Positions 3,963-14,835 of a stretch of DNA of 64,000 nt are shown in pieces. Position 1 is the first letter of the stretch. Every line of letters begins with the position of its first letter. Position numbers and translations under genes: made by a program. Under the pieces are notes generated by a model that saw only the letters and a list, made by a program, of their open reading frames with translations, had not been told where the DNA came from and did no database searches. Source of the DNA: Rhodoferax sp. (GTDB lineage Bacteria > Pseudomonadota > Gammaproteobacteria > Burkholderiales > Burkholderiaceae_C); contig NZ_JAMPYG010000008.1 of assembly GCF_023700745.1 (NCBI RefSeq), positions 62,001-126,000 of the forward strand, read 5' to 3'.

Positions 3963-4859
3963 TCAAACGCTGAACAGCTGGCCGCGCGCGGCGTCGGTAA
4001 TGGCCAACACACAGGGATGGCTGATGCGCCGCTCGACCGAGATCGCGTAAAACTCTTCTACCAATTCGGCCGTGTGACCGATCACCTGCACGCCAAACTG
4101 GCTACAGGTTTCTTCTTCAAGCACGCGCGGGGCCATGAACACGCCCTGGCCCTCGCGGCCAAAGGCCTTCATCAGCGCGGCGTCGTCAAACTCGCCCACC
4201 ACCACCGGCGCGATCTGGTGGCTGGCAAACCAGCCTTCGAGCTGCTGGCGCACCGAGGCCGTGGCGCCCGGCACCAGCATGGGCACGCCATCCAGGCAGG
4301 CGGGGAACTTGCCAGCCAAGCGCGGCAGCAGGCCGGGTGCAGCAAAAAAACTCATCACGCTGCTGCCCAGCGCATGGCTGTAGGCCTTGACGCTGACGCG
4401 CCGGGGCATGGGCTCGTCGGCAATCACCAGATCAAGCCGGTGCAGCGCCAGTTGCGCCAGCAGGTCGTCAAAGCTGCCTTCGCTGCACAGCAGCTTGACC
4501 GGCTCGGCGATCGAGAAAGCCGGTTCCAGCAGCCGATAGGCGATGGATTTGGACAGCGAATCAGCCACGCCCACCCTGAAATCCAGCCGCCGCTGGGCGC
4601 CGCGTACCTGGCGCAGGCTGCTTTCCAGCTCGCTGCCTAGGTTGAATATCTGGTCGGCATAGCCCAAGGCCAGGCGGCCGTGCTCCGTAAGTTCCAGGCC
4701 GCGGCCACTCTTGCGAAACAGCTTGCGGCCGAGCCAGTCTTCGAGCAGCTTGATCTGCCCCGAGAGGGTTTGCGGGGTGGTGTGCAACTGCTCGCCGGCG
4801 CGCATGATGCCGCCCGCACGGGCCGTGACCCAAAAATAGTAAAGATGCTTGAAATTCAT
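3963..4859 (-). CDS. nhaR: LysR-type regulator, NhaR-like
   Basis: MNFKHLYYFWVTARAGGIMRAGEQLHTTPQTLSGQIKLLEDWLG. Confidence 0.75.
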   Translation of the reverse strand: MNFKHLYYFWVTARAGGIMRAGEQLHTTPQTLSGQIKLLEDWLGRKLFRKSGRGLELTEHGRLALGYADQIFNLGSELESSLRQVRGAQRRLDFRVGVADSLSKSIAYRLLEPAFSIAEPVKLLCSEGSFDDLLAQLALHRLDLVIADEPMPRRVSVKAYSHALGSSVMSFFAAPGLLPRLAGKFPACLDGVPMLVPGATASVRQQLEGWFASHQIAPVVVGEFDDAALMKAFGREGQGVFMAPRVLEEETCSQFGVQVIGHTAELVEEFYAISVERRISHPCVLAITDAARGQLFSV

Positions 4860-11870: not shown

Positions 11871-12031
11871 GATGTGCGTAATGTACACAAAACTGTTCAA
11901 ATAAGTCTATTTATCCGCTTTAATTGACTCAATATATGATTTTTTCTCAATTCAAAGTGAGAACAAGTCGTTTGCCAAGTCGCTCGCATGGGCGCTACCA
12001 TTGCGCTATTCAACATCCACCGGAGAACCCC

Positions 12032-13225
12032 ATGGCCAAAGCAAGCTTCAACTGGCAAGACCCCTTTTTGCTCGACAACCAACTCAGCGACGACGAGCGC
12101 ATGATCAAGGAAGCTGCCGCTGCCTACTGCCAGGACAAGCTGCAGCCGCGCGTGATCGAGGCCTTTCGCAAGGAGCAAACCGATGTCGCCATCTTCCGCG
12201 AAATGGGCGAACTCGGCCTGCTTGGGCCCACGATCCCCGAAGCCTATGGCGGCCCCGGCCTGAACTACGTCGCTTATGGTCTGATCGCCCGCGAAGTCGA
12301 GCGTGTGGACAGCGGTTACCGCTCGATGATGAGTGTGCAAAGTTCACTGGTGATGGTGCCTATTTTTGAATTTGGCAATGAAGCCACCAAACAAAAGTAC
12401 CTGCCCAAACTCGCCACCGGCGAGTGGATCGGCTGCTTCGGCCTGACCGAACCCAACCACGGCTCGGACCCGGCCAGCATGCTGAGCCGCGCGGTCAAGG
12501 TGCCCGGCGGCTACAAACTGTCAGGCAGCAAGATGTGGATTTCCAACAGCCCGATCGCCGATGTGTTTGTGGTCTGGGCCAAAGAAGTGTCCGAGTCCGG
12601 CGCGGTCGGCCCGATTCGCGGCTTTGTGCTGGACAAGGGCGCGGCGGGTTTGAGCGCCCCGGCCATTCACGGCAAAGTGGGTTTGCGCGCCAGCATCACT
12701 GGCGAGATCGTCATGGACGGCGTGTTCTGCCCCGAAGAAAATGCCTTCCCCGAAGTGCAAGGCCTCAAAGGCCCGTTCACCTGCCTGAACAGCGCGCGTT
12801 ACGGCATTGCCTGGGGCGCGCTGGGCGCCGCCGAAGACTGCTGGCACCGTTCGCGCCAGTACGTGCTGGACCGCCAGCAGTTCGGCCGCCCGCTGGCCGC
12901 CAACCAGTTGATTCAAAAGAAGCTGGCTGACATGCAGACCGAAATCGCACTCGGCCTGCAGGGCTGCCTGCGCCTGGGCCGCATGAAGGACGAAGGCACG
13001 GCGGCGGTGGAAATCACCTCGATCCTGAAACGCAACTCCTGCGGCAAGGCGCTGGACGTGGCGCGCCTGGCGCGCGACATGATGGGTGGCAACGGCATCA
13101 GCGACGAGTTCGGCGTGGCGCGGCATCTGGTGAACCTGGAAGTGGTCAACACCTACGAAGGCACGCACGACATCCATGCGCTGATTCTGGGCCGGGCGCA
13201 GACGGGCATTGCGGCGTTCAACTAA
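12032..13225 (+). CDS. gcdH: Glutaryl-CoA dehydrogenase
   Basis: [76 protein letters not shown]. Confidence 0.93.
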
Positions 13226-13289
13226 TTGGGGTCAGATTCCAATTGATTTCATTTTTTTGTGAGACGGCAGTTTTGGATGGTCTGTGAGG

Positions 13290-13369
13290 GCAGCGGGCGG
13301 GGTACTGGGCTCCGCCTCATACGCGCTTCGCTTTGCGAAATCGGCGAATCCCAATACCCCACCCGCTGC
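13290..13369. repeat. Long imperfect hairpin 1 with conserved core
   Basis: Arms gcagcgggcggggtactgggctcc (13290-13313) and gaatcccaataccccacccgctgc (13346-13369), 20/24 complementary; core gcctcatacgcgcttcgctttgcgaaatcggc. Confidence 0.9.
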
Positions 13370-13454
13370 TGTGCACGCTCTGCTTTGCTGAGATTGAAAC
13401 TGAAATGCAAGCCCAAGTTGTTATTCATCTTTGCAAACGCACGCTCGACCCAGG

Positions 13455-13528
13455 CCATGGGGGCTTAGGCTAGGGGCCGATTTCGCAAAGCGAAGCGCGT
13501 ATGAGGCCCCCAGCCTAAGCTCCCATGG
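13455..13528. repeat. Long imperfect hairpin 2 with the same core inverted
   Basis: Arms ccatgggggcttaggctaggggcc (13455-13478) and ggcccccagcctaagctcccatgg (13505-13528), 22/24 complementary; core is the exact reverse complement of the hairpin 1 core. Confidence 0.9.
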
Positions 13529-13587
13529 CCAGTCACCAAAACCAACCTGCTAACGAATGAATCCTGGCTTAAAGGCCAAAAACAAAA

Positions 13588-14835
13588 ATGACAACACAAG
13601 CCGCCCTCTCCCACCTCAAGGTTCTCGACCTCTCGCGCGTGCTTGCCGGCCCCTGGTGCACCCAGATGCTGGCCGACCTGGGTGCCGACGTGATCAAGGT
13701 CGAACGCCCCGGTGCGGGGGACGACACGCGCCACTGGGGGCCACCCTTCCTCCAGGATGCGCAAGGCAAGGACACCAACCAGGCCACCTATTTCACCGCC
13801 TGCAACCGCAACAAACGGGCCATCACGCTCGACATGGCACAAATCGAGGGCCAGGCGCTGATCCTCAAAATGGCGGCGCAAAGCGATATCCTGGTGGAGA
13901 ACTTCAAGGTCGGGGGCTTGAAACAGTACGGACTGGATTACGACAGCCTCAAAGCGGTCAACCCGCGCCTGATTTACTGCTCGGTCACCGGCTTTGGCCA
14001 GGACGGACCGTACGCCGAACGCGCCGGTTACGACCTGATGATCCAGGCCATGAGCGGCCTGATGAGTATCACCGGCCATGCCGACGGCGAGCCCGGCGGC
14101 GGCCCGATGCGCATGGGCGTAGCGCTGATTGACGTGCTCACCGGCATTTACGCCTGCAGTGCCATTTTGGCCGCGATCGAAGTGCGGCATCGCACGGGGG
14201 AGGGCCAGCACATCGACATGGCACTGCTGGACGTGGGCATGGCGGTACTGGCCAACCAGGCGGCAGGTTTTTTGAACACTGGCAAGGTACCGCAGCGCCA
14301 GGGCAATACGCACCCGAGCCTGGCGCCTTACCAAACCTTCGAAACCCTGGACGGCAGCATGTTGCTGGCGGTCGGCAACGACGGCCAGTTTGCCCGCTTT
14401 TGCGAAGCCGCCGGCCACCCCGAGTGGGCAAAAGATGCACGTTTTGCCAGCAACACCCTGCGCGTCCAACACCGCACCGCCCTGATTCCGGCGCTGCAGG
14501 CGGTCACGCGCACGCGCAGCACGGCGCAGTGGATTGCGCTGCTCGAAGACAAAGCCGTGCCCTGCGGTCCGATCAACGACATGGGTCAGGCCTTTGCCGA
14601 CGCCCAGGTGCAGGCGCGCGGCTTAAGGGTGGACCAAGCCGTCGCCAGCTGCCAGCCAGCCGCAGGCGCGGTGGCAAGCATCGCCACGGTGGCCAGTCCA
14701 CTGCGCCTGATGGCGACGCCGCCGGTGTTGCACCGTCCGCCGCCCGCCTTGGGTGAGCACACCGACGAGGTGCTGGCTGAATTAGGGCTGGATGCGGCGC
14801 AAGTGGCAGGCTTGCGCCAACGCGGTGTGGTCTAG
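13588..14835 (+). CDS. CaiB/BaiF family (class III) CoA-transferase, probably glutarate CoA-transferase
   Basis: LKVLDLSRVLAGPWCTQMLADLGADVIKVERPGAGDDTRHWGPPF; GQHIDMALLDVGMAVLANQ; linked to gcdH. Confidence 0.88.
   Translation: MTTQAALSHLKVLDLSRVLAGPWCTQMLADLGADVIKVERPGAGDDTRHWGPPFLQDAQGKDTNQATYFTACNRNKRAITLDMAQIEGQALILKMAAQSDILVENFKVGGLKQYGLDYDSLKAVNPRLIYCSVTGFGQDGPYAERAGYDLMIQAMSGLMSITGHADGEPGGGPMRMGVALIDVLTGIYACSAILAAIEVRHRTGEGQHIDMALLDVGMAVLANQAAGFLNTGKVPQRQGNTHPSLAPYQTFETLDGSMLLAVGNDGQFARFCEAAGHPEWAKDARFASNTLRVQHRTALIPALQAVTRTRSTAQWIALLEDKAVPCGPINDMGQAFADAQVQARGLRVDQAVASCQPAAGAVASIATVASPLRLMATPPVLHRPPPALGEHTDEVLAELGLDAAQVAGLRQRGVV

Follow-up and report, generated by a model that had tools for sequence, protein, structure and literature searches.

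Hairpins at the ends of IS200/IS605 elements and in attC sites are recognised in single-stranded form and in a strand-specific manner, and Rickettsia palindromic elements (RPEs) are palindromic repeats that are tolerated in frame inside protein genes. REP, BIME and REPIN sequences are short intergenic palindromes, often arranged as inverted dimers of unlike units and sometimes located in genes, that are dispersed without an internal gene (PMC3733652, PMC3116915). The GTAG/CGTC REPs have stems of 5-13 bp, and some RPEs are related to CGTC repeats (PMC3733652). BREs are GC-rich repeats of 75-91 bp in Bordetella and Comamonadaceae, with some copies in coding sequences and four copies in R. ferrireducens T118; they have been described as a sequence repeat of >70% identity that is frequently tandem (Hot et al. 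2011, PMC3110155). In Bordetella, BRE maps to the region of BprJ1, a small RNA of 80 nt (PMC3110155), and bprJ is altered in an RNase III mutant (PMC8386462).

This study concerns a pair of long hairpins downstream of gcdH in Rhodoferax, and no description of the family to which they belong was found in the literature. We consider, with a probability of about 0.48, that the element at the gcdH site represents a Burkholderiaceae family of non-autonomous, REPIN-like inverted pairs of strand-specific hairpins. As a rule, mobile or repeated palindromes are defined through their conserved sequence; in this family the shape, the stem length and a short tip are conserved and the stem sequence drifts, so that its members come out of ordinary similarity searches as repeats that look unrelated.

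The hairpin pair between gcdH and the CoA-transferase gene

In the window, i.e., the whole stretch of 64,000 nucleotides that was analysed, the spacer downstream of gcdH holds two hairpins, A and B (Table 1). The 32-nt segment GCC-TCATACGCGCTTCGCTTTGCGAAATC-GGC (13314-13345) is present a second time, inverted and with 100% identity, at 13476-13507; in window shuffles the core is expected 0 times, even at 3 mismatches, and no third site with the loose tip pattern occurs within the window. Both hairpins fold better than all 200 of their shuffles (z -3.7 for A and -7.8 for B with DNA parameters), and RNA folding of the two gives z -5.5 to -8.4. Sequence and folding therefore confirm the exact inverted core and the two long hairpins described in the first-pass annotation, which was also right in calling the two stems unrelated to each other; the segment that it placed between them exists as well, but is slightly longer from foot to foot than the ~77 nt given there. 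The linkers can be aligned in part among Rhodoferax copies.

Table 1. Features of the gcdH/CoA-transferase region, in window coordinates
Feature	Coordinates	Strand	Remarks
gcdH, acyl-CoA (glutaryl-CoA) dehydrogenase, upstream gene	11924..13225	+	ORF; name from the first-pass annotation; start codon uncertain
AATTGGGGTCAGATTCCAATT, separate repeat beside the element, not part of it	13224..13244	+	same sequence flanks RAYT at L116 1060
Hairpin A: 27-nt arm + 26-nt apex + 27-nt arm	13290..13369	-	23/27 Watson-Crick pairs
Hairpin A apex (core), TCATACGCGCTTCGCTTTGCGAAATC	13317..13342	+	1 of 4 core matches in the genome
Linker between the feet of hairpins A and B, 82 nt	13370..13451		sequence
Hairpin B: different 27-bp stem, same apex inverted	13452..13531	+	24/27 Watson-Crick pairs
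Hairpin B apex, exact reverse complement of apex A	13479..13504	-	sequence
CoA-transferase, downstream gene	13588..14835	+	ORF; name from the first-pass annotation

Stem covariation, stem length and folding strand

The 26-nt core occurs four times in this Rhodoferax genome, namely as the window pair, as a single copy (L004) and in a chimera (L001). It is limited to the same genus in a sample of 61 genomes, and a species-level genome collection yielded 43 stretches with the exact core, nearly all from Rhodoferax, Comamonadaceae and other beta-proteobacterial bins; one comes from a Phycisphaerae bin and may be due to chance or contamination. Complementary flanks surround nearly every core copy. 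Standard pairs fill 91.9% of the pair cells among 21 core hairpins, compared with 37-42% when the arms are slid, and double (both-side) changes are found at 23 of the 27 stem pairs. The first-pass annotation had named three outcomes that would count against its proposal, and on each the results went the other way: the core is not confined to the gcdH site but is present in many Rhodoferax, its copies do not share one common stem sequence and hence do not form an ordinary fixed-stem REP, and its other matches do have complementary flanks.

Three stem families can be distinguished: A (GGCAGYGGGTGGGGTA...), B (GGCCATGYGGGCT...GGGGGCC) and C, the latter in restriction genes. Stems that are recognisably of family A are found at many loci and in a range of species, and the same is true of family B. 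In the usual element, a hairpin of one stem type with forward core is followed by a linker and then by the other stem type with the core reversed. Since each of these two families keeps its own likeness from locus to locus and from species to species, the stems are inherited and have changed by compensation, which contradicts the suggestion of the first-pass annotation that they are made from flanking DNA.

Hairpin pairs are ordered + then - in 30 of the 31 genuine pairs, and L051 is a further exception. Several variants depart from the usual form. L001 joins an A left arm to a B right arm and L011 shows the reverse, and both look like deletions between cores; in L025/L051 (L051 2634 = L025 1658) the core of hairpin B is turned over inside its stem; in G010 both cores have the same orientation and the stems are near-perfect. 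All of these variants would fit recombination or replication errors at hairpins. At the L051/L025 junction a leftover, GGCCGA directly followed by GGGCC, is a possible footprint of template switching inside the hairpin.

These variants bear on the idea of a mobile apex, or of an apex acting as a replication hotspot, whose stems would be made from the flanks by template switching. The apex is indeed separable from the stem, in that homologous A/B stems carry different apexes at one site, and both the core inversion in L051/L025 with its leftover junction and the like-oriented cores of G010 would suit such a process. The existence of homologous A and B families across loci and species largely refutes it, however, and neither the fixed stem length nor the strand-biased mismatches described below are predicted by flank copying, which makes it very improbable; template switching survives only as an explanation of occasional core inversions, not as the source of the stems.

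Across 146 distinct hairpins, Watson-Crick pairs make up a fraction of 0.65-1.0 from position 1 to position 27 of the stem and drop to 0.23 at position 28, i.e., the stem ends sharply at 26-27 bp. The terminal loop is variable and the tip beside the stem is conserved. Mismatches within the stem are one-sided: on the TCAT...AAATC strand of 97 non-redundant hairpins, A.C outnumbers G.T (157 vs 19) and C.T outnumbers G.A (69 vs 7). Counted per hairpin, 71 of these 97 lean one way and 5 the other, which is the safer figure for the strand bias, as the mismatch p-values ignore shared ancestry. Viewed from the opposite strand, the same mismatches are G.T/G.U wobbles and G.A pairs, from which it follows that selection acts on the structure formed by the single strand GATTTC...GTATGA. 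On this folding strand the tip C-GAT...TGA-G (in full C-GATTT...TATGA-G) could, judging from its sequence, form tandem G.A pairs. The strand bias thus predicts directly which strand folds. For hairpin A the predicted folding strand is the minus strand, which as RNA reaches -59.6 kcal/mol compared with -49.5 for the plus strand; for hairpin B it is the plus strand, with both strands about equal (-59.4 kcal/mol). Because the folding strands of paired hairpins are opposite, each DNA strand of a normal element carries one folding hairpin.

The extensive stem covariation and the clear strand bias of the tolerated mismatches point to an element that is recognised by its shape, so that the structure-based recognition proposed in the first-pass annotation is well supported. 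The strand-biased mismatches fit RNA as well as single-stranded DNA. The elements may accordingly act at the RNA level, with structured RNA from the GATTTC strand serving as a small RNA or as an RNase III/processing or stability element, and the two inverted hairpins would then work whichever way the region is transcribed. Tolerated mismatches that read as G.U and G.A on one strand are the usual signature of selection on RNA. We hold this explanation to be possible rather than probable, for the reasons given below.

Distribution, dispersal and decay

The weaker matches of the first model have the same 27-bp format with other apexes, e.g., TCATACTGTCAAAGGCCCAGAAATC, TCATACGCTTCGCTTTTTGAAATC and TCATACTCGCTTCGCTCGCCAAATC, and this genome contains about a dozen hairpins with the apex TCATACTGGRGTACCAGAAATC, including at least three inverted pairs. 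A broad model comprising all apex classes (27-bp stem; tip C-TCATA...AAATC-G) gives 90.8% paired cells and double changes at 25 of the 27 stem pairs. With this model, matches at E<=1e-6 were obtained in 51 of the 251 Burkholderiaceae genomes and 33 of the 126 genera sampled, where the E-values are rough and the many-genome searches scored only the best candidates per genome. Outside Burkholderiaceae, none of 281 genomes sampled class-wide had a match, which indicates that the model does not simply detect long GC-rich hairpins. Numbers of matches per genome are 14-17 in this Rhodoferax genome, 23 in G187 and 5 in G063; the hairpins measure 73-83 nt and mostly have a G+C content of 0.55-0.78. 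A search of plasmids and phages with one apex class returned no similar DNA, and five viral contigs with the loose tip pattern contained no hairpin according to a generic finder or the model. In Rfam, 18 loci had no match at the gathering score, and the window stretch gave sub-threshold matches only, nearly all of the microRNA type.

The best evidence for mobility is the recent dispersal in G171, a genome of another genus. Its two-hairpin units, about a dozen in number, measure ~230 bp and have a spacing of 154 nt; the sequence common to them drops off near the hairpin feet, and their flanks are largely unrelated. Some homology extends beyond the feet in a subset of these units and in Rhodoferax, so the edges are not absolutely clean. 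The mobility suggested by the first-pass annotation thereby gains indirect support. G171 is alone in its genus, and no empty site for its units was recovered. One of its loci, L212, contains identical hairpin pairs at 1638-1867 and 4620-4849, ~3 kb apart with ordinary-looking ORFs between them, which either a segmental duplication or two insertions could explain. Several G171 elements have another, separate motif beside them, approximately CCAATARAATAYYGCGGGAGCAGCTAT, which is repeated in the flanks of L220, L224 and L225.

No transposase was linked to the hairpin elements at the loci examined. A Y1 (RAYT-type) gene is present in 21 of the 21 genomes searched, and the flanks of the RAYT loci examined mostly contain GGGGTCAGA-type repeats and in no case these hairpins; the linked RAYT that the first-pass annotation had proposed to look for is thus not borne out, the local RAYT being flanked by a different repeat. 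Since repeats of the AATTGGGGTCAGATTCCAATT kind flank RAYT here (L116) and in other Burkholderiaceae, AATTGGGGTCAGATTCCAATT is probably the local RAYT's own repeat. In the window it overlaps the gcdH stop codon, just before hairpin A, and at L010 two inverted AATTGGGGTCAGATTCCAATT-type copies enclose a chimeric hairpin.

Most elements are intergenic, and divergent (promoter) spacers are avoided (6/80 vs 27/94, p 0.0004, genes being assigned with a simple ORF rule), as would be expected of tolerated insertions. Relative to genes, the elements occur in both orientations, including inside ORFs and even within one gene, which argues against a fixed mRNA role. Of the first seven proteins scanned for in-ORF copies, six are restriction enzymes of the MmeI type, and no match was obtained for the seventh ORF; among further cases, L111 is an MmeI-type gene and L213 an ORF with a SpoU-type methylase domain. 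Hairpins within MmeI-type genes are translated in frame, in both orientations, into low-complexity stretches of 27 residues. The MmeI-type restriction-modification genes at L064, L089, L094, L099, L102, L200 and L111 hold 1-3 in-frame hairpins each, situated within the methylase-domain region and near the target-recognition or C-terminal part. Several pairs 1-1.4 kb apart, considered as a candidate autonomous version, turned out to be two hairpins inside such genes (L064, L089, L094, L200, L099) and not a transposase-bearing transposon.

At the gcdH site itself, the search for the gcdH 3' region was successful in 75 of 90 Rhodoferax genomes, and the spacer was compared in the best 30 of the 75. 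About half of the compared spacers contain one or both hairpins. A short spacer without hairpins is seen in G003, G102, G069 and G088, and deletion remnants in G093, G061, G026 and G079; where a lone hairpin survives, it is the sense one in some genomes and the antisense one in others. The empty forms are messy, and no occupied/empty pair with a defined target was found at this site.

These observations also weigh on the RNA-level explanation. Avoidance of divergent spacers would agree with it. If BRE, which is similar in size and host range to these hairpins, belonged to the family, its position in the BprJ1 region (PMC3110155) and the change of bprJ in the RNase III mutant (PMC8386462) would agree with it too. 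Sense and antisense orientations are both common, however, even in one gene, a lone hairpin surviving at the gcdH site is the sense one in some cases and the antisense one in others, no Rfam family was found in 18 loci, and inspection of the sequence after hairpins A and B revealed no T-run 3' of either. The last point also counts against the hairpins being bidirectional transcription terminators or mRNA 3'-end protectors that are kept for that role. Their great stability, mostly intergenic location and rarity between divergent genes would suit such a function, but termination would not require a conserved tip, copies also lie inside ORFs, and the hairpins are missing at the same gene junction in other Rhodoferax species; we regard it as improbable.

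The A/B stems at the gcdH site carry different apexes in different genomes: the core1 apex with TCATA in G000 and G090, the TCAACGCG form in G010, G080, G086, G092 and G004, and a TGTCAAA apex in G062, G025, G005, G099 and G012. These classes are interleaved on the gcdH tree, and both hairpins of an element are usually of one class, although mixed elements such as G095 exist. The flanks in G062 resemble those of G025 and G005, which makes whole-spacer exchange at least as likely as exchange of the apex only. In general, the apex edit distance averages 1.8 within an element and 3.7 between elements of one genome (0/2000 shuffles), in a list that includes two spurious pairs (second rows of L055 and L079) which work against the result. 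Kissing between the two complementary loops of an element could account for such concordance, but G010 keeps near-perfect stems with direct-orientation cores that cannot kiss, elements of the G095 type are mixed, and whole-element replacement or gene conversion yields the same pattern, so that this is a decidedly improbable explanation.

According to the favoured reading of a REPIN-like family, each element would be an inverted pair of long hairpins selected to fold single-stranded, one per DNA strand. A protein may read the tip and the stem length on single-stranded DNA, e.g., at the replication fork, and such an enzyme would disperse the units in trans. Most copies, including that at the gcdH site, would be old, inherited in place and decaying by deletion. 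Natural experiments on their spread and decay are provided by the fixed gcdH site, where apexes differ, and by the copies that lie in frame within restriction genes.

Comparison with known systems

The hairpins would share with IS200/IS605 ends and attC sites the strand-specific recognition of a single-stranded hairpin; unlike these, they have no linked Y1 transposase or integrase at the loci seen, their conserved part is the tip and not the foot, and two hairpins are combined in inverted orientation. As with RPEs, in-frame palindromes are tolerated in protein genes, but sequence and stem are different, and the in-frame copies are mostly in MmeI-type restriction genes.

The likeness to REP/REPIN sequences is closer: a palindromic unit is repeated in many intergenic places (14-17 matches in this genome and 23 in G187), and the dispersed entity consists of two inverted units, as seen in the inverted pairs and the ~230-bp G171 units. 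In contrast to the 5-13 bp of REPs, the present stems are 26-27 bp long and of free sequence, and the family has a conserved tip and strand-biased mismatches. A constant GTAG/CGTC foot tag is absent over 71 hairpins, with GTAC/GTAG-like feet only in G171, and no RAYT is flanked by the hairpins, the RAYT present carrying another repeat. The family is probably similar in style to the mobile REP/REPIN repeats, a likeness that need not reflect common descent. We tentatively suggest that it constitutes a new superfamily, so far in Burkholderiaceae only. A putative enzyme or RNA-binding factor would gauge the length of the stem, 27 bp whatever its sequence, and would read a tip with tandem G.A pairs on one of the strands; the two hairpins at a fixed site would change their apex class jointly, and the linkers of MmeI-type genes would tolerate in-frame copies.

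Size, G+C content, host range and in-ORF copies of BRE match the present hairpins, and it is likely that BRE overlaps this family, in a comparison by description and not by sequence. The variable stem, conserved tip, inverted pairing and strand bias are not mentioned in the BRE section of that paper (PMC3110155). If BRE and the present family are the same, part of the family has already been named, and the architecture, the strand bias and the apex classes would be the addition.
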